NCBI RefSeq assembly: GCF_014639315.1
Contig: NZ_BMFY01000007.1
Coordinates: 62,001 to 126,000 of the forward strand
Reading direction: 5' to 3'
Origin: Sediminivirga luteola
GTDB taxonomy: Bacteria > Actinomycetota > Actinomycetes > Actinomycetales > Brevibacteriaceae
DNA: 64,000 bases
The notes under the pieces were generated by a model that was given only the letters and a program-made list of their open reading frames with translations, had not been told where the DNA came from and did no database searches. Made by a program: the position numbers and the translations under genes. This document shows positions 96 to 25,200 of this stretch, piece by piece; position 1 is the first letter of the stretch; each line of letters begins with the position of its first letter.

Positions 96-676
96 GCCGC
101 CCCCGCTACCGCCGCTCCGGCAACCCCGGTGAGCCGGACGCCGGCCGGACACAGGACCACGACAAGTCGGCGGCGCCGGTGGTGCTGCCGCATGTTCTGG
201 TGCGGGTCGACGACGACGGCACACTCGCGGTCACCGTGGACGGTGAGCCGTTCGAGCCCGAAGAGTTCGCCCCGCCCTGGCGGCGCTCGGGCTTCGGGAC
301 GCTGATCGATGCGGTGACCGGTGACCGGCGGGTGCCGGTGCGGGTGGAGGTCCGTGAGGTCGACGGCACCGCGTTCACCGACATCATCACCGCCGCCCGA
401 CGGCGCCCCGCCCCCGAACCCGAAGGCGAGTCGGCGCCCGAGGAGGCGACGGCGGCGGTCGAACTGGTGGAGGTCACCGGTGAGGGCTTCGTGCCGGGCG
501 AGGATGTCGCGGTCGCGGTCATCGTCGCTCACACCGACGCCACACCGGCTGGCAACGCCCGCGCGCTGATCGACGCGGCCCAGCTCGACGCCGCCCGCTT
601 GGCCAGTGCTGGAACCGGTGAGGTGTTCCTGCTCGGCAGGGTCTCGGGTGTCCAGGTGATCGTGAGGCCGCGATGA
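92..676 (+). CDS. Conserved hypothetical ICE protein
   Basis: A 194-residue soluble protein of unknown function. It is a clear paralogue of the gene at 53530..54093. Both have a variable charged N-terminus, then a block starting VLPHVLVRV with TVDGEPF and VREVDGTAFTDI, a variable linker, and a conserved C-terminal block LVEVTGEGFVPGEDVAVAV ending near VVAHTDAT. No signal peptide or membrane segment is seen. It lies between VirB4 and VirD4 genes and overlaps both by 4 nt, which suggests a role at the transfer ATPase or coupling protein. That role is inferred from position only. Confidence 0.8.
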   Translation: MSRPRYRRSGNPGEPDAGRTQDHDKSAAPVVLPHVLVRVDDDGTLAVTVDGEPFEPEEFAPPWRRSGFGTLIDAVTGDRRVPVRVEVREVDGTAFTDIITAARRRPAPEPEGESAPEEATAAVELVEVTGEGFVPGEDVAVAVIVAHTDATPAGNARALIDAAQLDAARLASAGTGEVFLLGRVSGVQVIVRPR

Positions 677-2448
677 GTGCGCCGCGGACGCCGGGGACGG
701 GTGACGGTCTGGCGAATCTCGCGATCGGCGCCCTGATCGGACTGGCGGGACTGGCTGGGGTGCTGCGCTTGGCGGGCACGATCGCCGCGTTCCTCACAGG
801 CGCCCCACAACCGCGAGCGGGGGTCGCAACCGGGTTCATGGTCCTGGTGCAGCCTGGCGATCCCGGCGCCGCTCTGGACGCCGAGGGGCTGAGCGCGGTG
901 GCGTACTGGATCACCGCGGTCATGCTGCTCGTCGGTTTGGGGGTGCTGGCGTGGTGGGTGTGGGGTCAGGTCCGCGACCATGCCCGCCGGGTCGAGGTCG
1001 ATCCGCGACGACTGGCGGGCACAGCGACTCGTAGTGAGGTTGCCCGCGCCGCCTCCGGGCGTGCGCTGCTGGGTCGCGCGTCGACGTTGCGGCCTTCGCT
1101 CGACAAGCCCCAGACCGGGGATGTCGGCTACCTGCTGGGGCGTTCGCGTGGCGCGAGCGTGTGGGCGAGTGTGGAGGACTCGATCCTGCTCGTCGGCCCA
1201 CCTCGTTCGGGCAAGGGCCTGCACGTGGTCATCAACGCCATCCTCGATGCGCCCGGCGCCGTGGTGACCACGAGTACCCGGCCGGACAACCTCACCGCGA
1301 CGTTGAAGGCGCGTGAGCGTGATGGGCGGCCGGTGGCGGTGTTCGACCCCCAGCACTTGGCTGAGGGTGTGCCGGCGGGGTTGCGGTGGTCTCCGGTGCG
1401 CGGCTGTGAGGACCCGCTGACGGCGATGATCCGCGCCACCGGTCTGGCCTCTGGCACCGGCCTGTCGGCTGGTGGTGTGGAAGGTGGCGGGTTCTGGGAA
1501 GGCAAGACCCGCGCCGCACTGCAAGCGCTCCTGCACGCCGCCGCCCTCGACGGGCGTCCGCCATCGGAGCTGTTCCGGTGGACCCTCGACCCCACCGCCG
1601 CCGCCGAGGCCGTCAGCATCCTGTCGAACTCCTCCCAGGCCGCGACCGGGTGGGCCGAGTCGTTGGAGGCGATGATCGAGGCCGACCCCCGCACCCGCGA
1701 CTCGATCTGGCAAGGCGTCTCCCTGTCCCTGGCCGCGCTGGCCGACCCGCGGGTGCTCGACGCGGTGAGCCCACGGGCAGGTGAGCACTTCGACCCCCAG
1801 ACCTTCCTCACCGGCTCGGGCACCCTGTATCTGCTGGCCACCGGCGCGGGGGCGGGGGCGTCGTCGGCATTGGTGGCGGCGTTCGTCGAAGACCTCGTGG
1901 AGACCGCACGGCGCATCGCGGCCCGATCGGCTGGCGCGCGGTTGGACCCGCCGCTGTTGCTGGCGCTGGATGAGATCGGCAACCTCGCACCCCTGCCGTC
2001 GCTGCCGACGTTGATGGCCGAGGGTGGCGGGACCGGGATCACCACCCTGCCCGTCCTGCAGTCCCTCGCCCAAGCGCGGGACAAATGGGGTGAGAACGCC
2101 GCGAACGCGATCTGGGACGCCGCGATCGTGAAGATCATCCTGGGTGGGGCGTCGAACTCGCGTGATCTGGCGGACTTGTCGACCTTGATCGGCGAACGCG
2201 ACGAGTACACCGACTCCACCACCGTCGGCGACCACGGCTCCCGGTCGGCTCAGCGCTCGGTACGCCGGGTGGCGATCCTGCCCCCGGACCGGCTCCGGAC
2301 GTTGCCGTTCGGCACCGGCATCACCATGCTCCGCTCCGCGCCCCCGATCGTGACCGACCTGCGCCCCTGGACGAGCCGCGACGACGCCACGACGTTGAAG
2401 ACCGACCGGGGCGCGGTCGAAGCGCTGCTCAGAAGCGAGCGCCCGTGA
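673..2448 (+). CDS. Type IV coupling protein, VirD4/TraG (TraM) family ATPase
   Basis: A 591-residue inner-membrane ATPase that hands the relaxase-DNA complex to the secretion channel. Two hydrophobic segments occupy the first 100 residues (one starts IGALIGLAGLAGVL, the second is around AVMLLVGLGVLAWWVW). A Walker A motif, GPPRSGKG, lies near residue 175. A Walker B type segment, LLALDEIGNLAPLPSLP, lies near residue 430 and is followed by the GGGTGITTLPVLQSLAQ stretch typical of TraG/TraM C-terminal domains. Length is normal for the actinobacterial family. Its ATG overlaps the upstream stop. It is highly similar to 54090..55868 across its whole length, which supports two related ICEs in this window. 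Confidence 0.92.
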   Translation: MSAPRTPGTGDGLANLAIGALIGLAGLAGVLRLAGTIAAFLTGAPQPRAGVATGFMVLVQPGDPGAALDAEGLSAVAYWITAVMLLVGLGVLAWWVWGQVRDHARRVEVDPRRLAGTATRSEVARAASGRALLGRASTLRPSLDKPQTGDVGYLLGRSRGASVWASVEDSILLVGPPRSGKGLHVVINAILDAPGAVVTTSTRPDNLTATLKARERDGRPVAVFDPQHLAEGVPAGLRWSPVRGCEDPLTAMIRATGLASGTGLSAGGVEGGGFWEGKTRAALQALLHAAALDGRPPSELFRWTLDPTAAAEAVSILSNSSQAATGWAESLEAMIEADPRTRDSIWQGVSLSLAALADPRVLDAVSPRAGEHFDPQTFLTGSGTLYLLATGAGAGASSALVAAFVEDLVETARRIAARSAGARLDPPLLLALDEIGNLAPLPSLPTLMAEGGGTGITTLPVLQSLAQARDKWGENAANAIWDAAIVKIILGGASNSRDLADLSTLIGERDEYTDSTTVGDHGSRSAQRSVRRVAILPPDRLRTLPFGTGITMLRSAPPIVTDLRPWTSRDDATTLKTDRGAVEALLRSERP

Positions 2449-2482: not shown

Positions 2483-5400
2483 ATGGCCGCCCGCAGGCGC
2501 ACGCCCCCGCCGGGTCAGCTCGAGCTGGACCTGTGGGGACTGGACGAGAGCGCGGCCGACGGCGCAATTAGCGACGCGCCGATCGCCGATGACGACGGAG
2601 CACCGGCTACGACGAGTCAGGGAGTCGATGATGAACCACTACGCGATCCGGGTCCGGGAGCACTGGACCCTGCACGCCCCGGACCGGGTGGCGGCGCTGG
2701 AGGACCCGGAGCGGTTCTTCAGCGACCTGGGGGCGCAGATCGCCGCCGAAGTGGCGGACCTGGCAGGCAGACTGCAGCACAGTCCGGCGTTGACCGTGGA
2801 GATGAGGCGCTCTTCGGGGCAGACTTACTTGCAGGACGCATCTCGTCGGATGACGGCGCGCAGGATCGCGGAGGAGATCGTGATGAACCAGCACCTGGCC
2901 TGGGCCGGCGATCCGAGCCTGCCGCTGGATCAGGCCCGCGAGGAGTGGGAGCAGACGCGCCCGGCCGACGAGAACCTGATCGCCTGGGCCGAGCGGACGC
3001 AGGACTCCCCGTACCCGATCTACTCGACAGCGGAGCTGGAGGACAAGGCGACCGAGTGGGCGCTGCCGACCGAGTTCCTGACCGGGCTCCTGGAGGCGGA
3101 GATCCCCCGGATGTACCTGGAAGCGAACCGGGAGATTCTCGCGGAGGCCGCGACTATCCGGTTCCTGCGCGAAGTCCACTAGCACCAGTCGGCGGGCCTG
3201 CGGCGGGTGCGCAGCGGTTCGTGCCGTCCTCCCAGGACGACCTGGCCCCCTCGGGTGCGAAAGCACGGTTCGAAGCGAACGTCGCCGCGATCCGCCTCGC
3301 CCGCGCACTCACCAAGGAAGACAGGACGGCGACGGCCGAGGAGCAGCACGTGCTGGCCCGGTGGTCCTCCTGGGGTGCGATCCCGGAGGTCTTCGACAAC
3401 GCCAAGTCGGAGTGGGCGGGCGAGCGTACCGAGCTGCGTGAGTTGTTGAGCGACAGCGAGTGGGATGCTGCCGCGCGGACGACGATCAACGCGCACTACA
3501 CCGACCCGGCGATCGCACGGCAGATGTGGCGCGCGCTCGGCGCGCTGGGGTTGGACAGCGGGCAGGTGCTGGAGCCGGGCTCGGGGGCGGGCACGTTCAT
3601 CGGACTGGCGCCCGAACAGGCCCAGGTGACCGGGGTGGAGTTGGACCCGATCACCGCGGCGATCAGCCACGGCCTCTACCCCCACGCCACGATCCGTGCC
3701 GAGTCGTTCGCTGACACCCGCCTGCCCGAGGGCCACTTCGACGCGGCGATCGGCAACGTGCCCTTCGCCAATGTCAGGCTGCATGATCCGGTGCACAACC
3801 CGACGGGTCAGTCGATGCACAACCACTTCATCCTCAAGTCCCTGCACCTGGTCAGGCCGGGCGGGCTGGTGGCGGTACTGACTTCGCACTACACGATGGA
3901 TGCCCAGAACCCCGGCGCCCGCCGGGAGATGAACGCTCTGGCCGATCTGGTCGGCGCGATCCGCCTCCCCTCTGGTGCGCACCGGCGGGCTGCGGGCACC
4001 GAGGTCATCACCGACCTGCTGATCCTGCGCCGCCGCGAAGACGGCCAGCCCCCGGCCGATGACCTGTGGGAGAGGGTCACTCCGATCACCATCGACGGGC
4101 AGCGGATCAAGGTCAACGCCTACTTCGATCACCACCCGGAGCACGTCCTGGGCGATATCAGCATTGGGCAGGGCATGTACGGAGGCGACAGCCTCCTCGT
4201 CACCGGCGACCTCGACCGGCTCGACGCCGCCCTGGCCGATGCGATCGACCAGGTGACCTTCACCGCCCGCCGTGGCGGGCTGTCGATGACCGCCCGTTCC
4301 GCGGTGCAAGAGTCGCGGCGGGCGGCGTTCGTGCCCTCGCCTCCGGAGCTGTGGGACGGCAGCATCACCACCACCGAAGGTGGCGGGTTCGGCACCGTGG
4401 CCGCCGGGACCGTCGAGCCGCTACCGGTGCCCAAGTCCGCGGCGAGCGAGCTGCGCGCACTGGTCGGGCTGCGCGATACCGCGATCCGGCTGTTGACACT
4501 GGAAGCCGCGAGCGTCGACGACACCGACGACATCGCCACCGCCCGCGAGGAGCTACGCCGCGGGTATCAGAAGTACCTCGGCACCTACGGACCCTTGAAC
4601 CGGTACACGCTGCGACGCACCGGCCGCACCAATGAGGCCGGGGAGGACACCTACGCGCGGATCGTGCCCACCCCGATCCGGCTCCTGCGAGGCGACCCCT
4701 TCGGGGCGCTGGTGATGGCCCTGGAACAGTTCGACGACACCAACCAGAGCGCCACCCCTGCGGCGATCATGACCCGCCGGGTGGTCGCACCGCGCGCCGA
4801 AGTCCAGGGAGTGGAGACCCCGGCCGATGCGATCGCGGTCAGCCTGGACAAGACGGGCGGGATCGACCTGGCTCTGATCGCCGACATGCTCGGTATGGGC
4901 GAGCCCGAAGCCCGCCAGGCTTTGGAGGGGCTGGTGTTCACCGACCCCGGCACCGACGACCTCATCCACGCCCCGGCCTATCTGTCCGGGGACGTCCGCA
5001 CCAAACTGGATGCTGCCAAAGCCCGCGCCGCCGACGAGCCCGCGTTCGGGACGAATGTGGAGGCGCTGGCCGGGGTGCTGCCCGAGGCGCTCGGGGTCGA
5101 GGACATCACCGCCCGGCTCGGGGCGGTGTGGATCAGCGCGGAGGTCCACGAACAGTTCCTGAACGAGTTGCTGCGCACGAGCGAGGTGCGGGTGGAGAAC
5201 CCGCTGCCGGGGATGTGGGAGGTCCGCGGCGGACGCCAAGGGCTGCTCGCGACCAGCGAGTGGGGCACCGAACGCCGCCCGGCACCGGACATCGCGCAGG
5301 CCGTGATGGAACAACGCACCCTGCTGGTCTACGACGAGGTCGAAGACTCAGGCGGCCGCAAACGCCAGGTCCTCAACCCGCTGGAGACCACCGCGGCACA

Positions 5401-8248
5401 GGAGAAGGCCGACGCGTTGGTCGAGCGGTTCGCCGAGTGGGTGTGGGAAGACCCCGAACGCGCGGCAGGCCTGGTGACCGAGTACAACCGGCGGTTCAAC
5501 TCCATCGTGCTGCGCGACTACACCGGCGCTGGCGAGTACCTGTCCCTTCCCGGTCTGGCGGCGACGTTCACGCCCCGCCCGCACCAGCGGGCCGCGGTCG
5601 CACGGATGATCGCCGAACCTTCCGCGGGCCTGTTCCACGAGGTCGGGGCGGGCAAGACCGCGGAGATGATCATGGGCGCGATGGAGATGCGCCGGATGGG
5701 CCTGATCGACAAGCCCGTGGTCGTGGTCCCGAACCACATGCTGGAGCAGTTCGGCCGCGAATGGCTCCAGATCTACCCGCGGGCGCGGGTTCTTGCCGCC
5801 TCCAGCCAAGACCTGAGCGCCGAGAAGCGTCGGCTGTTCGTCGCCCGCGCGTCGGCCAACGAGTGGGACGCGGTGATCCTCACCCAGGGGGCGTTCGCGA
5901 AGATCCCGCTGCGGGCCGAGACCCAGACCGCGTACATCCAGGGGCAGGTCGATCAGGTCAAGCAGGTCCTCGACGACGCCCAGGGTGAGGACCGGATGAG
6001 CGTCAAGCGCGTCCAACGCAAGCTGCTCCAGCTGGAGAACAAGGTCAAGGCACGCGTCGACACCGGCCGGGACGCCGGGGTGTGCTTCGAGGACACCGGG
6101 ATCGACTACGTGATCGTCGACGAGATGCACATGTACAAGAACCTCGCCACCGAGTCCAACATCCGCGACGCCTCCATCGAGGGCTCCGCCCGCGCCTCGG
6201 ACCTGCACATGAAACTGGACTACCTGCGGTCCCAAGGCCGCGAACGCATCGTCACCGGCGCCACCGCGACCCCGATCTCCAACTCGGTGACCGAGGCGTA
6301 CGTGATGCAGCGCTACCTGCGCCCCGACCTGTTGGAGGCCGCCGGGATCGGGGCATTCGATGCCTGGGCGGCGACGTTCGGACAGACCGTCACGAGCATG
6401 GAGATGGCACCGGCCGGGAGTAACACCTTCCGGATGAAGACCCGGTTCGCGAAGTTCTCCAACGTGCCCGAGATGTTGAAGATGTGGTCGATCTTCGCCG
6501 ACGTAAAGACCGCCGACGACCTCGACCTGCCCACCCCCGACCTTGCCCCACGTGGCGACGGCAAACGCGCCCCGGCCACCGTCGCCGTGCAGCCGACCGT
6601 GGAGCTGGAGCAGTTCATTGAGCAGCTCGGCGCCCGGGCCGAGAAGGTTGCCAACAAGAGCGTGTCTCCGGATGAGGACAACATGCTCGTCATCTCCACC
6701 GATGGCCGCAAGGCCGCCCTCGATGTCCGCATGATCGTCCCCAACACCCCATCAGGGCCGACGAAGGTCGACGTCGCCGCCGACGCGATCCACCGGGTCT
6801 GGGAGCAGACACGCGACCACGAGTACCTCGACACCCTCACCGGACAGCCCTCACCCATCCGCGGTGGGTTGCAGCTGGTGTTCTCCGACATCGGCACCCC
6901 CAACGTCGACCGGTGGAACGCCTACGACGAACTCCACGCCCAGCTCGTCTTGCGCGGGATGCCCGGCGAGGCGATCCGGTACATGCACGAGGCGAAAACC
7001 GACACCGACAAGGCCCGACTGTTCGCCGCCGCCCGCAACGGCCACATCGCAGTCCTCATCGGCTCAACCGAGAAGATGGGCGTCGGCACCAACGTCCAGA
7101 ACCGAGCCGTCGCGCTCTATCACCTGGACTGCCCCTGGCGACCGTCCGATATCGCCCAACGCGAGGGCCGCATCCTGCGGCAAGGCAATCAGAACCCCGA
7201 GGTCGCGATCGTCCGGTTCGTCACCGAACGATCCTTCGACTCCTACATGTGGCAAGGCGTCGAACGCAAAGCCACCTTCATCGCCCAGCTCATGCGCGGC
7301 CGGCTCGACACCCGCGAGATCGAGGAGATCGACTCCACAGCGTTGTCTGCCGCCGAGGCTAAGGCCATCAGCTCTGGCAACCCGCTGCTACTGGAGCACT
7401 CCACCATCCAGAACGAGGTCACCCGGCTGCGCCGCCTGGAACGGGCCTACCACCGCAACCAGTCCATGCTCGTCCACACCCGCGACCGCGCTACTGACGA
7501 TGCTCGCCGCACCGAAGCCGACATCACCGCCCTACAAGCTGCGCTCCCGAGAGTGCGCGATACCTCGGGCGACGGGTTCCGCATCGACCTCGCCGAGAAG
7601 AGCTACACCTCGCGGGCCGATGCCGCCCACGCGCTGGCCGAGTGGTCACACAGCTCGGACCTGAAGTGGGCGCCGCGCTACCAGTCCCGTGACTACGGCA
7701 CCATCGGATCTATCAGCGGCTTCGACATCACCGTGTCCACCCGGCCCGCGCTCGGTGGCGACCTGGTCGTGAATGTCGCGCTGGCCGGGGTACCGCGCAG
7801 CGGGTTCATCGTCACCCGCGAGGCGTTCCTCGACGGCGGCGTCGGTCTGATCCAGCGCATCGAGAACCGCGCCTCCGGCATCCCTGCCCTGCTCGACCAC
7901 GCCCGCGACGACCTCGCCGAAGCCGAGCAAGCAGCCGCCGATGCCGACCAGCGCATCGGACAACCCTTCCGGCACGCCACCGCGCTGGCTCACAGCGAGG
8001 AAGACCTCGCCCGCGTCGAGACACAACTGGCCGCGATGCAAGAAGAGACCGACCAACCCTTAGAACCCCAACCAGCACCCGAAGCCGGACCGTCGTCCTC
8101 GCCGGCTGACGCGCTGACCGTCGAGGAGGTCAAGGCCCACCGACCAGCCCTCGGCGTCCGTGCCGACCGGAGCCGCACCGCGATCGCACGAGCGGCCGGG
8201 GCAGACAGCTCAGCGGTCACGATGCGGCACCGCGGTCCGGCGTTCTGA
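2483..8248 (+). CDS. Giant N6-methylase-like / SNF2-type helicase (DarB-like ICE protein)
   Basis: A protein of about 1921 residues. An N-terminal methyltransferase-like domain shows VLEPGSGAGTF (about residue 363) and GNVPF, a variant of the N6-adenine NPPY motif (about 424). A superfamily 2 helicase follows, with HEVGAGKT (about 1050), the DEMH box (about 1212) and QREGRILRQGN motif VI (about 1560). The C-terminus is rich in charged helices. Proteins of this kind occur on ICEs and phages and are thought to protect incoming DNA or remodel it, as DarB does in phage P1; that role is inferred. The ATG at 2483 begins MAARRRTPPPGQLELDLW. The frame stays open to 8248, but from about 2630 to 3180 its codon use is poor because another gene is read there in a different frame. 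A GTG at 3221 is an alternative start. ICE-2 lacks this gene. Confidence 0.85.
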   Translation: MAARRRTPPPGQLELDLWGLDESAADGAISDAPIADDDGAPATTSQGVDDEPLRDPGPGALDPARPGPGGGAGGPGAVLQRPGGADRRRSGGPGRQTAAQSGVDRGDEALFGADLLAGRISSDDGAQDRGGDRDEPAPGLGRRSEPAAGSGPRGVGADAPGRREPDRLGRADAGLPVPDLLDSGAGGQGDRVGAADRVPDRAPGGGDPPDVPGSEPGDSRGGRDYPVPARSPLAPVGGPAAGAQRFVPSSQDDLAPSGAKARFEANVAAIRLARALTKEDRTATAEEQHVLARWSSWGAIPEVFDNAKSEWAGERTELRELLSDSEWDAAARTTINAHYTDPAIARQMWRALGALGLDSGQVLEPGSGAGTFIGLAPEQAQVTGVELDPITAAISHGLYPHATIRAESFADTRLPEGHFDAAIGNVPFANVRLHDPVHNPTGQSMHNHFILKSLHLVRPGGLVAVLTSHYTMDAQNPGARREMNALADLVGAIRLPSGAHRRAAGTEVITDLLILRRREDGQPPADDLWERVTPITIDGQRIKVNAYFDHHPEHVLGDISIGQGMYGGDSLLVTGDLDRLDAALADAIDQVTFTARRGGLSMTARSAVQESRRAAFVPSPPELWDGSITTTEGGGFGTVAAGTVEPLPVPKSAASELRALVGLRDTAIRLLTLEAASVDDTDDIATAREELRRGYQKYLGTYGPLNRYTLRRTGRTNEAGEDTYARIVPTPIRLLRGDPFGALVMALEQFDDTNQSATPAAIMTRRVVAPRAEVQGVETPADAIAVSLDKTGGIDLALIADMLGMGEPEARQALEGLVFTDPGTDDLIHAPAYLSGDVRTKLDAAKARAADEPAFGTNVEALAGVLPEALGVEDITARLGAVWISAEVHEQFLNELLRTSEVRVENPLPGMWEVRGGRQGLLATSEWGTERRPAPDIAQAVMEQRTLLVYDEVEDSGGRKRQVLNPLETTAAQEKADALVERFAEWVWEDPERAAGLVTEYNRRFNSIVLRDYTGAGEYLSLPGLAATFTPRPHQRAAVARMIAEPSAGLFHEVGAGKTAEMIMGAMEMRRMGLIDKPVVVVPNHMLEQFGREWLQIYPRARVLAASSQDLSAEKRRLFVARASANEWDAVILTQGAFAKIPLRAETQTAYIQGQVDQVKQVLDDAQGEDRMSVKRVQRKLLQLENKVKARVDTGRDAGVCFEDTGIDYVIVDEMHMYKNLATESNIRDASIEGSARASDLHMKLDYLRSQGRERIVTGATATPISNSVTEAYVMQRYLRPDLLEAAGIGAFDAWAATFGQTVTSMEMAPAGSNTFRMKTRFAKFSNVPEMLKMWSIFADVKTADDLDLPTPDLAPRGDGKRAPATVAVQPTVELEQFIEQLGARAEKVANKSVSPDEDNMLVISTDGRKAALDVRMIVPNTPSGPTKVDVAADAIHRVWEQTRDHEYLDTLTGQPSPIRGGLQLVFSDIGTPNVDRWNAYDELHAQLVLRGMPGEAIRYMHEAKTDTDKARLFAAARNGHIAVLIGSTEKMGVGTNVQNRAVALYHLDCPWRPSDIAQREGRILRQGNQNPEVAIVRFVTERSFDSYMWQGVERKATFIAQLMRGRLDTREIEEIDSTALSAAEAKAISSGNPLLLEHSTIQNEVTRLRRLERAYHRNQSMLVHTRDRATDDARRTEADITALQAALPRVRDTSGDGFRIDLAEKSYTSRADAAHALAEWSHSSDLKWAPRYQSRDYGTIGSISGFDITVSTRPALGGDLVVNVALAGVPRSGFIVTREAFLDGGVGLIQRIENRASGIPALLDHARDDLAEAEQAAADADQRIGQPFRHATALAHSEEDLARVETQLAAMQEETDQPLEPQPAPEAGPSSSPADALTVEEVKAHRPALGVRADRSRTAIARAAGADSSAVTMRHRGPAF
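2631..3182 (+). CDS. Small ICE protein nested within the methylase/helicase gene
   Basis: A 183-residue protein starting MNHYAIRVREHWTLHAPDRV, with no function that I recognise. It is acidic, helical, rich in Trp and Glu, and has no membrane segment. Two ATG codons at 2628 and 2631 follow a GGGAG Shine-Dalgarno at about 2620-2624. Third codon positions in this frame are almost all G or C, while the overlapping long frame shows random third positions and Gly/Pro/Arg/Asp-rich low-complexity translation. This frame is therefore the coding one between about 2630 and 3180. Both frames stay open over 550 bases. It was probably inserted into, or grew inside, the linker region of the neighbouring gene. 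Confidence 0.75.
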   Translation: MNHYAIRVREHWTLHAPDRVAALEDPERFFSDLGAQIAAEVADLAGRLQHSPALTVEMRRSSGQTYLQDASRRMTARRIAEEIVMNQHLAWAGDPSLPLDQAREEWEQTRPADENLIAWAERTQDSPYPIYSTAELEDKATEWALPTEFLTGLLEAEIPRMYLEANREILAEAATIRFLREVH

Positions 8249-8365
8249 ATCGGACTCCTGCGCTGAGGTCCGTCTTGTGTTCGATCTGTCGGCGCGAAGT
8301 GCTCCCGAAGTCGAGCAAGCGGCACGCTGCCCAACCTGCTCGTTCGGCGGGAGATCATTGGGGAT

Positions 8366-9403
8366 GTGAGCGCTCGCCACCACCTCGTCCCGCAGTTCTA
8401 CCTGCGGAACTTTGCCAACGGCAACCAGCAGCTCGCCCTGGTCGATCGAGCCCGACCAGACCGAGCGATCAGAAACGCGGTCCGCAAGGCATGCTCGGAA
8501 GTTGGCTTCTACCGGATCGAGACCGACGTGCTCGCCCGCGAGCAGGACCGAATCGGTCACGACCCCGAGGTGGTCGAGCACCACTTGAGTCAGTTCGAGC
8601 GCGCGGCAGCGCCCGCCATTTACAAGTTGATCCGGACCGGCCTCTCGGACTTCACCAAGGAGGACTGGTACCACCTGATCAACCACATCGCGCTCCAGAC
8701 CGTTCGCGGGCATCGGTGGCGCGAGGACTTCAACGCGGCTGCCACCCATCAGATGCGGCTCCACCTGGGGCAGACCGTCACCGACGAGCAGATCCGTGCC
8801 TGGCTTCGTGAGAGCGATCGGCCGATCACCGACGAGGAAGTGAGCGCGTTCCGAGTTGAACTGTTAGGCCCGAAGGGTCCCAGATTGGTTGCGCCCGAAG
8901 CGGTGATGGTTCAGGAGAGCCTCAAACTCGCCCTGAGCGGACTTGGGGAACGCCTGGCAGACGGGATGCACTGGACCCTGATCCGCAGCGACGAGGCCCC
9001 GGTCCTGACCTCTGATGAGCCAGTCTGTTGGTGGTCGCCGGGCGATGGGCCGGTTGGATATGCGACGGCCAACGTCGTGTGGTTCCCTCTGAGCCCGCGG
9101 TTGATCCTGCAACTACGTGACCGAGACCTCGACCAGCGGGCCCTCGGCCTTCCGACGATCGACACTGCCGCCGGGAGAGATGACCTGATACGCCTCATCA
9201 ACGGTCAGGTCGGAGGTCAAGCGCACCGCTGGATCATCCACCACCCCGATGACCGTCCCCTCGACCGCCTCCAACTGGCACCCCGCACGAAGTGGGGAGA
9301 TCAACTCGTGAGTTCCACGCATGAAGGAAGTACGCGTCGCGAGCTCTGGTACCACCGCCGCCTGCCCGAACTGGATGACGGAGACTCCACCTCCAGGAAA
9401 TGA
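8366..9403 (+). CDS. DUF4238 domain-containing protein
   Basis: A 345-residue soluble protein. The N-terminus, RHHLVPQFYLRNFA, is the signature of the DUF4238 family, and the later TSDEPV segment near residue 214 is also typical. The biochemical function of the family is not established. The gene begins at GTG 8366 after a GGGAG-like site near 8350 and lies between the helicase and ssb genes. Spacers of 117 bp before it and 205 bp after it, and its absence from ICE-2, mark it as cargo rather than core transfer machinery. Lone DUF4238 genes are often found in variable regions, so a defence or toxin role is possible but unproven. Confidence 0.8.
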   Translation: MSARHHLVPQFYLRNFANGNQQLALVDRARPDRAIRNAVRKACSEVGFYRIETDVLAREQDRIGHDPEVVEHHLSQFERAAAPAIYKLIRTGLSDFTKEDWYHLINHIALQTVRGHRWREDFNAAATHQMRLHLGQTVTDEQIRAWLRESDRPITDEEVSAFRVELLGPKGPRLVAPEAVMVQESLKLALSGLGERLADGMHWTLIRSDEAPVLTSDEPVCWWSPGDGPVGYATANVVWFPLSPRLILQLRDRDLDQRALGLPTIDTAAGRDDLIRLINGQVGGQAHRWIIHHPDDRPLDRLQLAPRTKWGDQLVSSTHEGSTRRELWYHRRLPELDDGDSTSRK

Positions 9404-9608
9404 TTCGGAGTGCGGCCACGTCGACCGACATGCACCCGCACATGTATCGCCATGTCGGGTACGACCTCGTCGCCCGAGAGTTCCTTCCGTGGTCGCCTCT
9501 GTCCCGACGCAACTGGGCAGGCGTGTGGCGGTCACGCGGGTGCACCTACCAGTCGAGAGACAGTCGCGCCCACTGCGGTCTGTCGCCGACGAGGACAGGA
9601 GCAGACCG

Positions 9609-10082
9609 ATGGCTATTCGCACGCAGCAGTCTCTGACGGGGTTCATCGCAACCGATCCGCAGCTGACTTACACCGAGAAGGGCGAAGCGCGGTTCTATGC
9701 GCGGGTCGGGCAGGAGAACTACCGGCGAGAGACCGACGGGTCGTTCACCAAGCTGGAGCCGGACTTCCACAACCTAGTGATCTACCGCGCCAGCGCCGAG
9801 CGCGCCTATGAGCGGTTCGCCAAGGGCGACAGCTTCGTCGCCGAGGGGTACGCCCACGAGTACTCCTACACCCGCGACGGCCAGCAGATCGAGGGTGAGG
9901 AGTTCGTAGCCAAGAAGATCGGCCACGACACGGCCCGCACCACCTACGAGGTCGCGCGCACCCGCCGCGAGGAGCCCACCGTCGAGCGGGCTGCCGAACG
10001 CGACGGCCCCGCCCGCAACGCCACGGCCCCTTCCGCCGCGAGCAATGCCAGCGCGAGCCGGCAGCCCGCGCTCGGCCTCTGA
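9609..10082 (+). CDS. ssb: Single-stranded DNA-binding protein of ICE-1
   Basis: A 157-residue OB-fold protein that would coat the transferred single strand. The start MAIRTQQSLTGFIATDPQLT and the later block EGEEFVAKKIGHD match the SSB at 55952..56398 very closely. The ATG at 9609 is preceded by an AGGAG-type site (about 9598). The frame is open further upstream, but that extension has no similarity to the paralogue. The C-terminal tail is Ala/Ser/Arg-rich and lacks the acidic DDDIPF tip of housekeeping SSB, so it may not recruit the usual host partners. It is followed 15 bp later by the next ICE gene. Confidence 0.88.
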   Translation: MAIRTQQSLTGFIATDPQLTYTEKGEARFYARVGQENYRRETDGSFTKLEPDFHNLVIYRASAERAYERFAKGDSFVAEGYAHEYSYTRDGQQIEGEEFVAKKIGHDTARTTYEVARTRREEPTVERAAERDGPARNATAPSAASNASASRQPALGL

Positions 10083-10097
10083 CCCCGAGACCCGACG

Positions 10098-10733
10098 ATG
10101 AATGAGCACACACCACCGAAGCCGCCGGACCTGGACGAGCCCGAACCTGACACCCCGCCTCCTTCTGAAAGCGGTCCGGCTGGTGGTGCGCGGGTGCTGG
10201 ACGAGCCGCCGCACCCGGTGAACTGGAACCTGCTGACCGCCAAGCAGGCCGCGATCGAGTGGCGGGAGCTGAACGCCTGGGTGGACTGGCTGCGCCACGC
10301 CTACGGTCTGCCCGCCAGTGTGGTGCCGCCGTTCTGGTACCGCCACCCAGAGTTGGTGTGGGAGCTGTCGGCGCTGCACGTTCATTGGCTGTGTAGCTAC
10401 GACCCCGAGCAAGACGGGTCCGCGGGGCTGGGGTGGCATCACGACTTCGCCGAAGCGAGGCTCCGGCTGCGCGACTGGGTCGCCGCGTCCGGAACGCGGG
10501 TGGACCGTGACCGGCCGACCCGTCAAGCCGTCTGGCCCGGCCAGGACGCTCCCGAGCCGGTCGAGGAGACCGTGATCGCCGACCGGGATGCGGACTTCGT
10601 GGCGTTCGTCAACGTCGACCTCGCCCGCCGTCGCGACGCCGAAGAGGCGTACTACGCCTCCCTGATCGCCCACGCCACCGACGGAGACGGTTTCGGTGAG
10701 CAGACCGGGCGCTCCGGCTCCGAGGCCGAGTAG
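10098..10733 (+). CDS. Conserved hypothetical ICE protein, Trp-rich
   Basis: A 211-residue protein, function unknown. An acidic, proline-rich N-terminal tail is followed by a conserved block with PHPVNWNLL, a WRELNAWVDWLR segment, YGLPASVVPPFWYRHPELVW and HWLCSYDPEQ. It has many Trp and Tyr residues and no membrane segment. It is a full-length paralogue of 56418..57011, also directly after ssb. The fixed position after ssb suggests a role with single-stranded DNA or recombination, but nothing in the sequence shows an activity. Confidence 0.8.
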   Translation: MNEHTPPKPPDLDEPEPDTPPPSESGPAGGARVLDEPPHPVNWNLLTAKQAAIEWRELNAWVDWLRHAYGLPASVVPPFWYRHPELVWELSALHVHWLCSYDPEQDGSAGLGWHHDFAEARLRLRDWVAASGTRVDRDRPTRQAVWPGQDAPEPVEETVIADRDADFVAFVNVDLARRRDAEEAYYASLIAHATDGDGFGEQTGRSGSEAE

Positions 10734-10744
10734 GTGCACGGGCG

Positions 10745-10945
10745 ATGGTGCGTTCCTATGACCGCAAGACCGACCGGGCCGGCGCGGACCGGCCGGTGCG
10801 GGTCCGGTTCGTCAGACGCGAGGAGATTGATGCCGAGAAGGTCGCCGAGGTCCTCATCCGTCTTGCTCTGCGCGCGGCCGGGGATGGCACCGCCACCGGA
10901 CGGGCCGGTGAGCACCTCCGCGGTCTGCTCGAACCGCGGCGGTAG
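10745..10945 (+). CDS. Small hypothetical ICE protein
   Basis: A 66-residue basic protein beginning MVRSYDRKTDRAGADRPVRV, with a helical segment EEIDAEKVAEVLIRLALRAA. It has the same position as the 79-residue gene at 57008..57247, between the Trp-rich protein and the recombinase, and a loosely similar core (a helix before a Gly/Pro-rich end). GC-ending codons support coding. Function unknown. Confidence 0.6.
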   Translation: MVRSYDRKTDRAGADRPVRVRFVRREEIDAEKVAEVLIRLALRAAGDGTATGRAGEHLRGLLEPRR

Positions 10946-10997
10946 ACTGGCGGGGTACGAACCACGATCACGGCGCCCACTGGCACCCGACCGTAAG

Positions 10998-11020
10998 CCC
11001 CACTGATGGGGTGTTCTTTT
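10998..11020 (+). terminator. Possible intrinsic terminator before the ICE-1 recombinase
   Basis: A short stem CCCCA/TGGGG with a CTGA loop (10998-11011) is followed by TGTTCTTTT. It ends the SSB operon and would separate it from the recombinase gene. The stem is only 5 bp, so strength is uncertain. Confidence 0.4.
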
Positions 11021-11097
11021 CGCATATCTGACGTGACCGCCACCCCGGCGCCCCAGCCGCCCGACCCTTGTCGGGCCTCTGAAAGGCGGTCACACCG

Positions 11098-13257
11098 ATG
11101 ACGCTCACCGACCACACCACCGGCCTGGACCTACGCGCCTTGCGCGCCCTGGCCGCCGGCACGACTCGTCGCGCCGACCACAGCGAGGAGCCGCCGGCCG
11201 ACGGTCTGGTGCCGGCAGTGTCCTACCTGCGGGTCTCGACCAAGGACCAGGCCACCCGCAACGGCCTCGAAGAGGGCCTGTCCATCCCCGCCCAGCGTGA
11301 TGCCGCCGCCAGGAAGGCCGAGCAGCTCGGCGCGGTCATCGTCAAGGAGTTCATCGAACCCGGCGAGTCCGCCAAGACCGCCAGGCGTCGCGCGTTGCAG
11401 GAGATGCTCGACTACCTGGCTGCGAATGCGGTGCAGTACTGCATCATCAACAAGGTCGACCGCCTCGCCCGCAACCGGCTCGACGACGCAATCATCCACG
11501 CCACCCTGCGCGGTGCCAACATCACCCTGGTCTCGGTCACCGAGAACATCGACGAGACCCCTTCCGGGATGCTGATGCACGGCATCCTGGCCTCGATGGC
11601 CGAGTTCTACTCCCTCAACCTCGCCCAAGAGGTCACCAAGGGCATGGTCCAGAAGGCCACCCTCGGCGGCACCCCCACCAAGGCCCCACTCGGCTACCTC
11701 AACGTCCGCACCACCGACGCCAAGGGCCGAGAAGTCCGCGACGTGCAGGTCGACCCCGAGCGTGCCGAGCTGATCCGGTTCGCGTTCACCGCCTACGCAG
11801 GCGGCGAGCACTCCCTCTCATCGCTGGCGCGGGAGTTGAAGACCCGCGGCCTGACCACCCGCCCCACACCGTCCCAGCCCGCCCGGCCCGTGACGACCAC
11901 CGCGTTGCACAAGATCCTGACCAACCCCTACTACCAGGGCACCGTCACCTTCCGCGGCATCACCTACGACGGCGCCCACACCCCACTGGTGGATTCGGAG
12001 ACCTGGCTGCGCGTGCAGACCCAGCTCGATGCGAAGAACGCCGTCGGAGAACGCCCGCAGAAGTACGACCACTACCTCAAAGGCAACCTCTACTGCTCCT
12101 GCGGCGCCAAGCTCATGATCGAACGCCCCCGCGACAAGAACGGCGAACGATACGAGTACTTCACCTGCTCCGGCCGCCGGAAGAAGACCGGCTGCACCCG
12201 CTCCGCCGTCCTCGCACCGCGAGTCGAGGACCGGATCGACCGGGACTACGGCACCAACGGCCTCACCACCGCCGAAGCCGAACAGATCGCCTCGGTGCTG
12301 CACCATGTGTTCGCCCAGCTCGAAGCCTCCAGCGACGACGAACGCAAGCTCCTCCAGACCCAGCGCGACAAGCTCGACGCCGAACGCCTCAAGCTCGTCC
12401 AGGCCCACTACGCCGACGCCATCCCCCTCGACCTGCTCAAGGCCGAACAGGACCGCATCCGCACCAGCCTGGACGCGATCACGAACCGTCTCGACGGCCT
12501 CGCGACCACCTACCGCGACGCACACGACGGGCTCGATCAGCTCCTCGGCGTCCTCACCGACCTTGGCGATCTCTACGCCCGATGCGAACCCACTGAACGC
12601 CGGATGCTCAACCGCGCCCTCTTCAAGCGCATCGTCGTCGACGAAGACGAGAACATCACGTTCTTCCCCACCGAGCCCGCAGCCACCGTCCTCGCCCACG
12701 CTCGCAGCGGTGGGACCACCGAACCCAGCCCGGACGCGAAACTGCCCCGTCATCAGACGGGGCAGGTTTCGAATTTCTCGACTTACGTGGACCTCCGTAG
12801 CAGCTTCTCAAACCCCCGGAAGCCGCTCGGATCGCTGATTTCCCGCGTCCTACGGAGATCGCCGGGTCGTCGGCCGCACACTCAGCGTGCTCAGATCGCC
12901 GATGGGCGCGGTCCGGTGCGTGAGAATTCGCGTCAGTCTCAAACCCGTTTGAGCGTCTCCAATCGAGCCGAGCTGGTCGCCGGTTACGCCGCTGGTGTGC
13001 CCGTGCGCGAGCTGGCGACACGATTCAACGTGCACCGCGGCACCGTGCGGGAGATAGCTCGGGAGGCGGGCTTGGCGGCGCGTCGCCCGGAGTTGCCCGA
13101 CGCGATCCGAGTGGACGCCGCTCAGCTCTATGCGGGTGGGATGACGCTCGCTCAGGTCGCCGCGCGACTCGGAGTAAGCCATGAGGCCGTGCGCTCGGCG
13201 GTGCTCGCGTGCGGCGGGACCATCCGTGTCGGCGGTCGTCGCCGGGTCGGCGCCTGA
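11098..13257 (+). CDS. Large serine recombinase fused to tandem HTH C-terminus
   Basis: A 719-residue integrase/excisionase of the large serine recombinase family. The catalytic domain has YLRVSTKDQ with the nucleophile Ser47, and the zinc-ribbon region has LYCSCGAKL and YFTCSGRRKKTGC. A coiled-coil-like stretch follows from about residue 395. It aligns with the ICE-2 recombinase (571 aa) up to about residue 545. The remaining 170 residues are unlike that protein and contain two HTH-like repeats (ELVAGYAAGVPVRELATRF and a second around LAQVAARLGVSHEAVRSAV). Such repeats resemble the small resolvase-associated HTH proteins often found beside recombinases. A terminator-like hairpin sits inside the junction (12742-12765), so the long form looks like a gene fusion. 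Confidence 0.85.
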   Translation: MTLTDHTTGLDLRALRALAAGTTRRADHSEEPPADGLVPAVSYLRVSTKDQATRNGLEEGLSIPAQRDAAARKAEQLGAVIVKEFIEPGESAKTARRRALQEMLDYLAANAVQYCIINKVDRLARNRLDDAIIHATLRGANITLVSVTENIDETPSGMLMHGILASMAEFYSLNLAQEVTKGMVQKATLGGTPTKAPLGYLNVRTTDAKGREVRDVQVDPERAELIRFAFTAYAGGEHSLSSLARELKTRGLTTRPTPSQPARPVTTTALHKILTNPYYQGTVTFRGITYDGAHTPLVDSETWLRVQTQLDAKNAVGERPQKYDHYLKGNLYCSCGAKLMIERPRDKNGERYEYFTCSGRRKKTGCTRSAVLAPRVEDRIDRDYGTNGLTTAEAEQIASVLHHVFAQLEASSDDERKLLQTQRDKLDAERLKLVQAHYADAIPLDLLKAEQDRIRTSLDAITNRLDGLATTYRDAHDGLDQLLGVLTDLGDLYARCEPTERRMLNRALFKRIVVDEDENITFFPTEPAATVLAHARSGGTTEPSPDAKLPRHQTGQVSNFSTYVDLRSSFSNPRKPLGSLISRVLRRSPGRRPHTQRAQIADGRGPVRENSRQSQTRLSVSNRAELVAGYAAGVPVRELATRFNVHRGTVREIAREAGLAARRPELPDAIRVDAAQLYAGGMTLAQVAARLGVSHEAVRSAVLACGGTIRVGGRRRVGA
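12742..12765. terminator. Hairpin embedded at the recombinase/HTH junction
   Basis: A perfect 10-bp stem CTGCCCCGTC / GACGGGGCAG with an ATCA loop, followed by GTTTCGAATTTC. It lies exactly where recombinase homology ends and is now translated inside the 719-aa frame. It was probably the original recombinase terminator. Downstream on the minus strand (stop at 12783-12785) a short frame ends GFEKLLRRST, which looks like the tail of an unrelated gene and supports a junction here. Confidence 0.5.
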
Positions 13258-13269
13258 GTTCTTCACACC

Positions 13270-13662
13270 TCACCGGATACCTATCGCGTCCACCACGGCC
13301 CGCTCTTTTGCGTCGTCTGCTTCGCTGGGCGAGCTGGCGCGCTCGCGACGGGCGGTGACGGACTCGCGGACACGGGCGCGGATTAGGAGCACAGCGCTGA
13401 CCGGCCCGATCCAGAGCATCTTGAGCATGTTCCAGATCGCCCACAGCACTGCGAGGTGGAGCCATCCGGGTGCGCCGTCCTCGATGAGTTGGACACAGAC
13501 GTTCGCGATCAGGATGTACGGGACTGCGAGCAGCATCGCGGGGATACCCCACTTCAAGCCGCGTCGGTGAGTTCGGATCGCATCCAGCAGGATGTTGGTG
13601 GGCATGTAGCGCCGCAGGAAGTAGCGGGTGTGGACGCTGACGGTCCAGATCAGACGGATCAT
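13270..13662 (-). CDS. Small membrane protein of unknown function
   Basis: A 130-residue protein starting MIRLIWTVSVHTRYFLRRYM, with two hydrophobic segments (PAMLLAVPYILIANVCVQLI and the LAVLWAIWNMLKMLWIGPVS region) and a charged C-terminal tail. The ATG at 13662 has a GGAGAGG site 7 bp upstream, so the longer frame to 13743 is unlikely. Similar small proteins are common in actinobacterial accessory regions without a known role. It converges with the recombinase gene. Confidence 0.7.
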   Translation of the reverse strand: MIRLIWTVSVHTRYFLRRYMPTNILLDAIRTHRRGLKWGIPAMLLAVPYILIANVCVQLIEDGAPGWLHLAVLWAIWNMLKMLWIGPVSAVLLIRARVRESVTARRERASSPSEADDAKERAVVDAIGIR

Positions 13663-13855
13663 GGTCTTCCTCTCCATCGCACAGTTAATATGACGAGGCG
13701 GTGCGTTGAAGAGTGACCCGAGGGTCTGCCGCGAGCGGCGCATTACAGAGGAGAAATCCGCCTCGAGGCCAAGTCTACGCCTCGGGCCGGACGTGAAGGA
13801 AGGGACGGGCGAACTCGCACCGAGCCCAGGCCGATCGCCCGCTGCTGGGTCGCAA

Positions 13856-14428
13856 CTATCGGTAGGAGCTGGGCGCCTTAGACCACTTGGCGCGAGCGCG
13901 TTCCATGACCTTGCGGGCGCCGCTGTGGTTCATCCTCCAGCGGGCGACAGCGAGGCTGACGTGGTAGGCATCCGCGGCCTCCTCGTCGGTGGCGTTCGCT
14001 CGGGCGAGCCGGAAGGCTCCGTCGTTGGGGATCAGCATCTCCCCCGAGAGCCAGTCGGCTTCGGCTTCTTGGTCGCCGCCCAGCCCACACTTCCTCTCGT
14101 CGGAAAGCGAAACGCCGAACTGGTGCTCCAGGACGACGTGGGCGAGTTCGTGGCACATGGTGGTGCGCCGACGAGTCAAGGGCTGAGCATCGTTCTCCAG
14201 GATGACCACCCCGCTGCCGTTCGGGATCAGCGCCCCGGATAGTGCGCTCCCGTCCGCTCGTAGGAAGTGGTCGCGCGCCACACCATCGAGGTCGCTGAGC
14301 TGGACGACGGGGATGCCGTACTCAGACGCGAAGGCATAGGGGTCGAACGGCGCGTGCGCGTCGAGGCCGATTTCGGTTCGTAGCTCCAACGCGAGGCGCT
14401 TCGCCTCGGTCTTGAATCCTCGACGCAC
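13856..14428 (-). CDS. capP: CapP-like ImmA/IrrE metallopeptidase
   Basis: A 190-residue zinc peptidase of the ImmA/IrrE family. The HExxH site is in TTMCHELAHVVLEHQ (about residue 90), with downstream acidic residues in QEAEADWLSGEMLIP that supply the third ligand. The start is GTG 14428, 3 bp after the stop of the repressor gene. In characterised CBASS loci a protease of this type, CapP, is activated on DNA damage and cleaves the repressor CapH to switch on the operon. Here the pair is divergent from a CBASS operon, which supports the same job. A generic ImmA-type element regulator is the alternative. Confidence 0.82.
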   Translation of the reverse strand: MRRGFKTEAKRLALELRTEIGLDAHAPFDPYAFASEYGIPVVQLSDLDGVARDHFLRADGSALSGALIPNGSGVVILENDAQPLTRRRTTMCHELAHVVLEHQFGVSLSDERKCGLGGDQEAEADWLSGEMLIPNDGAFRLARANATDEEAADAYHVSLAVARWRMNHSGARKVMERARAKWSKAPSSYR

Positions 14429-14431
14429 GAG

Positions 14432-14800
14432 TCATCCCTGGGCCCGTGCACGTTCGATGGTCGCGCCGATCACCTGCTGCAGGTACTTGACGTCGGTTTC
14501 GCTGAGGTCCTTCCGGGCGCGCAGGAGCGGTGCGAGCTGGGCCATGAGGTCGGGTTCGCGAGTGTCGTCGGCGTCACGTTCTCCCTCGTGCTCGAAGAAG
14601 TCCTCGGCCGGGAGTCGGAGCCAGGCGATGATCGTGGCGAAGCCATCGGTGTCTGGCTTGAGGCCGTTGCCGAGCCGGGAGAGCAAGGAGGGGCTCACGC
14701 CGATCTCACCGGCCAGTGCTCGCCAGGAGAGTTGGCGCTCTTGACGCGCGGCGTCTAGGGCGGAGTACAGCGCGGCCGTGTTGATCGTGGTTTTGGCCAT
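14432..14800 (-). CDS. capH: CapH-like XRE-family repressor
   Basis: A 122-residue protein with an N-terminal XRE helix-turn-helix (WRALAGEIGVSPSLLSRLG, about residues 26-44) and a helical C-terminal segment (LSETDVKYLQQVIGATIERA) that could form the dimer. The linker holds a Phe-Phe pair at residues 68-69 (AEDFFEHEG). It is in one operon with the peptidase gene and divergent from the CBASS genes, with a near-palindrome at 14811-14826 just upstream. The expected role is to repress CBASS transcription until cleaved by CapP. Assignment is by family, pairing and position. Confidence 0.82.
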   Translation of the reverse strand: MAKTTINTAALYSALDAARQERQLSWRALAGEIGVSPSLLSRLGNGLKPDTDGFATIIAWLRLPAEDFFEHEGERDADDTREPDLMAQLAPLLRARKDLSETDVKYLQQVIGATIERARAQG

Positions 14801-14810
14801 ACCCCCAGTG

Positions 14811-14826
14811 TGTCACATCTGCGACA
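14811..14826. promoter_or_regulatory. Putative CapH operator
   Basis: The sequence TGTCACATCTGCGACA is a palindrome with one mismatch, 11 bp upstream of the capH ATG and in the shared intergenic region with the CBASS operon. A TTAGAAT element at about 14852-14858 is a possible -10 for the rightward promoter. Operator function is inferred. Confidence 0.45.
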
Positions 14827-14902
14827 GTCCGTCGCCTCCGACACGGAGTGTGTTAGAATTGAAACGCAGCATCGAGTCTAGAACACCGAGGAGGTGAGGA
14901 GC

Positions 14903-15022
14903 ATGGCAGGCAAGCGAGGGCGCAGCGCGGTCACGGGTCGGTTCGTGAAGCAGTCCACGGTGAAGCGTCACCCGAAGACCACGACCAACGAGACCACCGG
15001 CAAGCGCAGCAAGAAGAAGTAG
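14903..15022 (+). CDS. 39-residue basic peptide, first gene of CBASS operon
   Basis: A short open frame MAGKRGRSAVTGRFVKQSTV that continues to a run of lysines (RSKKK). Twelve of 39 residues are Lys or Arg. The ATG follows an excellent AGGAGGTGAGG ribosome site, and codons end mainly in G/C. No membrane segment. Small proteins with a RSAVTGRFV-type core followed by HPKTT are familiar from actinobacterial mobile DNA but have no assigned function. It is 84 bp upstream of the CD-NTase gene on the same strand and probably shares its promoter. A nucleic-acid-binding or regulatory role is a guess from charge. Confidence 0.75.
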   Translation: MAGKRGRSAVTGRFVKQSTVKRHPKTTTNETTGKRSKKK

Positions 15023-15106
15023 GCAACGAGCCGCACCTGCTCGACGCAGCAATGTCGGTGGCAGTAACTACGGTGATCGAACGACGAACCAACCAGGAGA
15101 ACGACT

Positions 15107-16072: not shown

Positions 16073-16683
16073 CTCGCGCAACAGGGCCGGATCGCGGCGC
16101 GGGCACCGCGGCGCTCAACCCCGTGCTCTGGACTGAACGTGAACCTGTGCGACTGGCGCGCGACCAAGATGAAGTCCAGGCTTTCGCGCCGTTGCTCGAA
16201 TACCAGAGTCCAGCAGACGACGGCTTGCCGCACGGCGGATGGATCGGCGTGCTCCCCCGCTGGCCGTTCGAGCGGCCGCAGCCCAATGCTCTCGACGAGC
16301 TGCTCGGGGACCAGGAACTGCGGGTGCTCGTCGCCTACTCCGCGGCGCACCCGATGGTGCCGCCGACCATCTACTCCCTCGATCCGGAGCCGTCGATCTG
16401 GGAACAGACACAGTCCGCATGGCACGTAGCCCCAGGAGGATCGCTCTGTCTGCTCCAGAGCGATGGCGGCTGGCAGCCCGAAGCCAGCCTCACCGAGCTT
16501 CTGGCGAAGGCATCGGGGTGGCGAATCGAGTACGCCCTCATGAAGGCTGGAGTCATCAATGAGATGTCGGTCCATGGCATCGTCTCTGACCCCTCACACG
16601 ACCACCTGATTGACCGAGCGATTCAGCGAGCAGCTCCAACACCGGACCCGACCGAGGCGGGAGACACAGATGTCTCCCCATAA
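16069..16683 (+). CDS. E2-like ubiquitin-transfer protein of CBASS
   Basis: A 204-residue E2-fold protein. The signature is a PMVPPTIYSL segment followed by GGSLCLLQSDGGWQPEASL, where Cys127 is the predicted catalytic cysteine and WxP is typical of prokaryotic E2 domains. It would accept the CD-NTase C-terminus from the E1 and transfer it to a target, priming the synthase. In most type II CBASS this domain is fused to E1 as Cap2. Here it is a separate gene overlapping the E1 gene by 14 nt. Function is by family and operon context. Confidence 0.82.
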   Translation: MTRATGPDRGAGTAALNPVLWTEREPVRLARDQDEVQAFAPLLEYQSPADDGLPHGGWIGVLPRWPFERPQPNALDELLGDQELRVLVAYSAAHPMVPPTIYSLDPEPSIWEQTQSAWHVAPGGSLCLLQSDGGWQPEASLTELLAKASGWRIEYALMKAGVINEMSVHGIVSDPSHDHLIDRAIQRAAPTPDPTEAGDTDVSP

Positions 16684-19823: not shown

Positions 19824-19932
19824 CTGCGCCAACCGACCTCGCGGTCGCCCGTAACACCATGTTGAGCGTCACTCTCGCGTGGAGGATTCGCTCGACGTCT
19901 AGACAACGGCGCTCCGAAGGACACGGACGTCT

Positions 19933-21441: not shown

Positions 21442-21498
21442 CCCTCACAATCGAATCAAGTCGACTGCAAGCTTCGGAAGTGCCGAATTGCGCCACAC

Positions 21499-25047: not shown

Positions 25048-25179
25048 GGTGACAAGGTGCGAGCTCCAGTTCACGGCAGCGGGCGGCCGACAGTTCACAG
25101 CGGAGGCGGGCGCGCGCGGCGACACCACGAGTGCCGCCGTGATCCCGTGGGCGCCCTGATTCGCAGAGGCGCTCTTTCA

Positions 25180-25197: not shown

Positions 25198-25200
25198 AGG

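Follow-up and report, generated by a model that had tools for sequence, protein, structure and literature searches.

TnpV (Pfam PF14198) takes its name from Tn4451. The DarB-like methylase-helicase dyad of polyvalent proteins is reportedly the subject of a paper by Iyer et al. (2017). Passages in the literature describe P1 DarB as protecting element DNA from type I restriction (PMC5512222), and postulate an excision role for TnpV from its likeness to lambda Xis (PMC3158075). In Streptococcus suis, elements inserted in an snf2 gene are described as carrying TnpV (PMC9815147), and these may be related to the nested gene pair reported here. Overlapping genes are known in bacteria and are assumed to be very rare (PMC4683798, PMC2542354). 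One of them, nog1, is like our pair in being a complete gene embedded in another, citC; it is described as antisense and as limited to relatives of Escherichia and Salmonella (PMC4683798), whereas the pair described below lies on one strand, occurs in two phyla, and shows selection in both frames. Among the matches listed from the open-licence PubMed Central literature, none described a TnpV gene lying inside a methylase-helicase gene, and a word search of the main text of PMC5512222 found neither "TnpV" nor words beginning with "overlap."

The locus lies in a 64,000-nucleotide stretch of Sediminivirga luteola DNA (the window), whose source genome comprises 3.86 Mb in 45 contigs. A preliminary description of the window had pointed to a complete gene nested in another frame of a methylase/helicase gene, and we found both open reading frames (ORFs) to be open and conserved. 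The features of the locus are as follows.

673..2448, plus strand: VirD4/TraG coupling protein gene (Pfam TraG-D_C, 7.3e-28; T4SS-DNA_transf, 8.6e-26)
2483..8248, plus strand: outer gene, with N-terminal motif, dual-coded linker, and adenine methylase plus SNF2 helicase core (1,921 aa; open frame, PHROG and Pfam matches)
2516..2533, plus strand: QLELDL, an outer-frame motif similar to those that bind the beta clamp
2619..2624, plus strand: AGGGAG, Shine-Dalgarno-like site for the inner gene, within the outer coding sequence, 6 nt before ATG 2631
2631..3182, plus strand: inner gene, TnpV-like, 183 aa, predicted all-helical (homology, Shine-Dalgarno-like site, third-position GC)
2630..3181, plus strand: dual-coded stretch, whose outer reading is a predicted disordered linker (stop, codon-choice, and composition tests)
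3242..8248, plus strand: catalytic core, starting LAPSGAKARF, adenine methylase-like and then SNF2 helicase (found with a core query of 3221-4500)
About 5585-6367, plus strand: SNF2 domain (Pfam, converted coordinates)
About 6959-7186, plus strand: Helicase_C domain (Pfam, converted coordinates)

The outer ORF is open from 2474, its first listed start, to 8248 (1,924 aa), and alignment of 19 loci placed the conserved start at ATG 2483 (MAARRRTPPPGQLELDLWG), with the start and the N-terminal motif kept across all 19. Its product matched the DarB-like antirestriction family phrog_10089 over residues 166-1878 (E = 0, 1345.5 bits). In Pfam, Helicase_C scored above its cut-off (5.7e-6), SNF2-rel fell just under its own (2.2e-5; 24.2 bits against 24.9), and the methylase match was weak (0.0088). 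By these matches, a predicted adenine methylase and an SNF2 ATPase are combined within one protein, as in the DarB-like dyad (PMC5512222), and the conjugative context is also alike, the coupling protein gene adjoining the outer gene on its upstream side. A tRNA-Ala (cgc) gene at 59076-59151 of the window might mark where a mobile element integrates. Elsewhere in the window, two very long ORFs (21499-25128 on the minus strand and 22558-25413 on the plus strand) overlap by about 2.6 kb on opposite strands, probably a high-GC shadow frame.

The inner gene sits wholly inside the outer gene, on the same strand and in a different frame. It is open to its stop at 3182, with a first start at ATG 2589 and the conserved start at ATG 2631. 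We surveyed 71 entries, consisting of the window and 70 loci; L001, L002, and L060 are repeats of either the window or L003, and for L059 the match taken was that of L054. No core was detected in L045 and L050, and the inner gene was missed by tblastn in L039, L040, L042, and L070. In all 65 entries in which both the inner gene and the core were found, the frame offset was the same, the outer frame was open over the inner gene, and it was joined in frame to the core. L070, when read by eye, agreed with nesting and brought the set to 66, from which 27 redundant entries were dropped to leave 39 non-redundant representatives (inner identity <90%).

Across these representatives, the outer frame contained no stop within the inner gene in 6,065 codons, counted without regard to kinship. 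Shuffling each inner gene's own synonymous codons predicted 59.6 stops, core codon usage predicted 88.4, and the same offset within the core predicted 77.7; the third frame over the inner genes held 247. Codon choice at the junctions told the same story. A T-ending inner codon before AA, AG, or GA, which would create an outer stop, occurred at 0 of 1,157 such junctions, compared to 263 of 3,197 safe junctions, while in the core control T-ending codons were found at 413 of 6,312 junctions before AA, AG, or GA and at 1,883 of 23,578 safe ones. The stop and codon counts treat sequences as independent, and kinship makes that independence look greater than it is. Chance openness arising from composition was ruled out by the stop, codon-choice, third-frame, and core-offset controls together with the stand-alone TnpV control described below. 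Fourfold sites differed less in the inner gene than in the core (0.370 vs. 0.457, 464 pairs). When protein identity was held equal, the outer frame also had a higher identity than a core pseudo-frame in each of the five identity bands, only slightly in the lowest, in a comparison whose three upper bands hold 11, 11, and 6 inner pairs and in which divergence time is unmatched. By these measures, both frames behave as protein-coding and selected, as expected of a conserved overlapping pair.

These results bear on a reading in which the real genes are just the inner one and a core that begins near 3221, and base composition alone accounts for the open outer frame across the inner gene. Such a reading would suit the public annotation of L044, L046, L052, L071, L072, and L083, where the helicase starts only after the inner gene, and it would suit the window itself, where GTG 3221 is an in-frame start codon for the core and no Shine-Dalgarno core of at least 4 nt was found upstream of ATG 2483. 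Among the representatives, 23 of 35 automatically picked outer starts had such a core; L014 had no in-frame ATG, GTG, or TTG ahead of its motif. Against it stand the absence of outer stops where 60 to 88 were expected, a result repeated at an inner GC of 0.40-0.49 in six of seven Bacillota loci, the conserved motif that lies upstream of the inner gene in the core's frame, and the shifted composition of the outer reading. We regard this explanation as exceedingly unlikely.

The preliminary description had also raised the possibility that the first 50 codons make a separate peptide and that translation of the large protein restarts near 3221. The in-frame GTG would allow re-initiation of the core, but in all 65 entries that have both parts the N-terminal codons run on to the core without an intervening stop. 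Moreover, the distance from the inner stop to the core anchor took 28 distinct lengths over the 66 entries, ranging from 32 to 281 nt, and every one of them was 2 mod 3 and so kept the frame. A separate peptide is hard to reconcile with this pattern, and we give it only the slightest chance of being correct; an additional short form started near 3221 may be produced alongside the full-length protein. Also raised was a comparison with helicase homologues for direct joining of the N-terminus and the core, and a homologue with a short spacing was indeed found in Methylosinus (L082), where the motif NQLTLSLFDS lies about 60 residues ahead of the core match and no TnpV-like gene was recognised between them.

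We then weighed whether the outer gene alone is translated and the inner frame is a by-product. Annotation of a sole SNF2 gene in L081, L085, and L089 (Enterococcus faecalis), L086 (E. hirae), and L087 (Virgibacillus), five of the six Enterococcus/Virgibacillus loci, is compatible with this idea. However, the inner protein retained 51 invariant columns among 26 sequences, and its mean identity exceeded that of the outer reading (0.614 vs. 0.468, 215 pairs). Differences at inner codon positions 1, 2, and 3 were 0.288, 0.228, and 0.357, compared to 0.219, 0.173, and 0.416 in the core; the inner order, 3>1>2, is that of a coding frame whose third position is damped. The G/C-rich third positions and ribosome site proposed earlier for the inner frame were borne out: third-position GC was 0.91, and 33 of 39 representatives carried a Shine-Dalgarno core ahead of their inner start, compared to 41% at random same-phase positions; inner starts in four of the 39 (L053, L056, L057, and L058) were extrapolated by alignment and have non-standard start codons. 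The inner protein of L081 matches Pfam TnpV, and TnpV genes stand alone in L090 and L091, which also argues against a by-product. We consider translation of the outer gene alone very unlikely, and we infer both the expression and the function of the inner gene.

Use of both frames through programmed frameshifting, with fusion products made in place of, or in addition to, independently initiated ones, found no support in the survey. The closest case is an Iamia plasmid (L077), where the N-terminal half of the inner gene reads into the core in a single frame. There, a single shift at 2084-2500 of the locus apparently moves both frames and disturbs both genes, and it could be a sequencing error or decay. 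Most inner genes have a Shine-Dalgarno sequence and a start codon, and the inner gene's own stop precedes the core, so we judge frameshifting to be highly unlikely. The evidence supports a large gene read, on its sequence, as one continuous frame, with a conserved TnpV-like gene wholly within its linker and selection maintaining both.

The relationship of the inner protein to TnpV differs among the loci. The nested Bacillota copy in L081, the only Bacillota copy scanned, matched Pfam TnpV well above the 27-bit cut-off (3.1e-15, 56.6 bits). Its actinobacterial relatives in L051 (24.6 bits, 2.6e-5), L048 (21.9 bits), and L044 (15.8 bits) fell below that cut-off and aligned over the same N-terminal half. 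The window's inner protein, which has a long C-terminal half, had no Pfam match and so did not reach the PF14198 cut-off; we therefore call it TnpV-like rather than TnpV. Neither NCBIfam nor PHROGs gave a useful match to the inner protein or its relatives, and the best E value against solved structures was 0.16. No match to the inner gene was found by tblastn in 50,697 phage records, and no relatives were confirmed in viral_contigs with two queries. A search for PF14198 across 148 genomes gave no matches and its controls were blank too, making it uninformative. The structure model of the inner protein was all-helical and weak (mean pLDDT of 58.7, with about 80 for the first 50 residues).

The core scan of genome_contigs yielded 35 loci. 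Searches with the inner protein found it in 7 of 60 genomes within the family, and searches with the inner alignment found it in 7 of 396 genomes within the phylum and 16 of 396 within the order, with the source genome counted each time. Inner relatives were 52-88% identical in the genome_contigs loci and as little as 27% identical in alignment A1; the most distant, L056 and L057, showed 26-28% identity to the best query used. A plasmid search with the inner gene returned 10 records. From core searches (2,034 records) we picked 13 plasmid loci to cover lineages, and an inner gene was nested in 11 of them: Kocuria, Paenarthrobacter, Arthrobacter FB24, Micromonospora, Nocardia, Rhodococcus, Brevibacterium, Natronoglycomyces, Streptomyces, Corynebacterium glutamicum, and Enterococcus faecalis L081. 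In the Streptomyces plasmid (L079), the annotated helicase ORF exceeds 16 kb (7355-23422 of the record) and also has a nested TnpV-like gene.

Several entries were kept out of the nested count: L039 and L042 (core cut short and unrelated sequence upstream), L082 (where no inner gene was recognised), L077 (with a disturbance of both frames at a single point), L050 (rearranged), L045 (where the outer frame is open across the inner gene and the core spans the start of the record), and the stand-alone L090 and L091. L050 is a rearranged copy in which, at 5700-6560, the N-terminal part of the outer gene and the beginning of the inner one seem to be fused to an M15 peptidase gene. L059 carries a second, tandem TnpV-like copy (1495-1840) upstream of the nested one and outside the core's frame, and this upstream copy was likewise left out. 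L040 was counted as nested, its inner gene having been spotted by eye rather than by homology. This gene in Tsukamurella (L040, 2994-3620) and that of C. glutamicum (L080, 1857-2378) are different-looking inner genes in the same slot and frame, and a QLDLF- or QGSLFD-like motif comes after them. The C. glutamicum type was present in 14 plasmid records.

The Bacillota set consisted of seven loci (L081 and L084 to L089, six of them drawn from 22 records), namely five from Enterococcus, one from Virgibacillus, and one from Subdoligranulum, for which the stretch seen did not include the core itself. None of the seven had an outer stop across TnpV, where 5.0-13.4 stops per locus were expected from downstream codon usage and 1.4-4.7 from shuffling of their own codons; the third frame held 12-18. 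Inner GC was 0.40-0.49 in six of the loci and 0.58 in Subdoligranulum. The outer reading of six Bacillota loci contained no cysteine (1.9% expected), fewer hydrophobic residues (13.0 vs. 21.4%), and more Asp+Glu (18.7 vs. 9.5%). Annotated TnpV was present in many further records. Two stand-alone TnpV genes (L090 and L091, one of them beside tet(O)) had four stops each in the matching offset frame, indicating that openness of this frame is not intrinsic to TnpV. Taken at the level of sequence, the two genes appear to be a real, conserved dual-coded pair in which selection keeps both frames in two bacterial phyla.

The preliminary description had called the outer frame low-complexity over the inner gene, as we also found, and had offered a host gene tolerating a junk linker of some 180 residues as one explanation. 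A linker is indeed present and predicted to be disordered, but its open frame and composition speak against junk. Relative to simulations with core codon usage and fixed inner proteins, the net charge of the outer linker was -3.0 instead of +7.9 per 100 residues, Asp+Glu rose to 15.5% from 9.6%, Arg fell to 12.4% from 16.9% and His to 1.3% from 3.7%, and cysteine was absent from all 6,065 residues (0.75% expected). The linker still departed from shuffles of its own codons, which gave a net charge of 0.0 and 12.9% Asp+Glu, 0.49% Cys, and 2.5% His; serine stood at 5.4% against 2.9% by this shuffle, and Arg, Gly, and Pro showed no departure from it. Because the inner codon choice renders the outer reading acidic and cysteine-free, the linker is probably translated. 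An AlphaFold model of the outer N-terminal part gave residues 31-246 a pLDDT below 50 and no secondary structure; residues 247-335, in the core, were better (up to 91 per block), and the cut end was poor again. This model was weak (mean pLDDT of 43.7 from 19 sequences). TnpV also exists as a stand-alone gene and resembles a normal helical protein, whereas the outer reading of the overlap is of low complexity; of the two readings, the outer linker was therefore probably the second to arise.

The sequence QLELDL ahead of the linker fits the published hexameric clamp-binding form Q-phi-x-[L/M]-x-[F/L] (PMC11139829). With an optional fifth residue (Q-phi-x-[L/M]-(x)-[F/L]), this form was found in 10 of the 39 representatives, including the window; the other 29 fail it, many with F where L or M is prescribed. 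A looser pattern, Qxx[LFIM]x(1-2)[LFW], chosen post hoc after the sequences had been viewed, had a match in 35 of 39 representatives among the 75 outer residues that precede the inner gene, compared to 2.6 in shuffled sequences and 0 of 39 in the overlap stretches. It was absent from the other four representatives, and the strict pentamer QL[SD]LF was present in one. A passage of the review cites LQLELDF as the most abundant clamp binder from phage display and describes the clamp motif of Hda as lying in a disordered N-terminus (PMC11139829). Given these two precedents and the 10 representatives with the published form, recruitment to the clamp by the outer N-terminal motif is a good, if putative, lead. 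The likeness to Hda-type binders (PMC11139829) lies in the window's hexamer, and the difference lies in the 29 representatives off the strict form and in clamp binding being, for this family, a prediction from sequence.

Public records handle the pair inconsistently, some clipping the large protein and others omitting the small one. In addition to the clipped and SNF2-only entries given above, L073 and L076 have only the long gene annotated, and L084 is annotated as a separate TnpV and a clipped SNF2 gene yet proved to be nested. Annotation is thus no guide to nesting.

We think it likely that the same DNA encodes both a motif-linker-core enzyme and a nested TnpV-like protein, both under selection, with the linker acting as a clamp-directed tether and the inner protein as an accessory. 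Ribosomes initiating at 2483 would make the full methylase-helicase, and others would initiate internally at ATG 2631 by means of the site at 2619-2624 to make the small helical protein. The linker would be an acidic, cysteine-free, flexible tether between the N-terminal motif and the catalytic core, and QLELDL near its tip would recruit the enzyme to the host sliding clamp. There, the methylase-helicase could act on element DNA that has just been replicated or is entering the cell, and could shield it against restriction, as proposed for DarB-like dyads. Because a tether demands only length and suitable composition, it could house a second gene, and because of the nesting the inner protein would be produced together with the enzyme, most likely to assist or regulate either that enzyme or the element.

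A more speculative proposal, which we hold to be possible but doubtful, is that TnpV is primarily an ancient partner of conjugative methylase-helicases and not an excision factor. Nesting would then enforce joint production and perhaps co-translational binding, selection on the linker would act chiefly on its length, its charge, and the absence of cysteine, and the same slot would also be filled by the second, different-looking inner gene of the Corynebacterium type. Since the pair recurs in Actinomycetota and Bacillota, including loci with an inner GC of 0.40-0.49, it offers a test case for the co-evolution of two reading frames. If the motif-and-tether reading is true, it would suggest how conjugative methylase-helicases locate the DNA that they protect.
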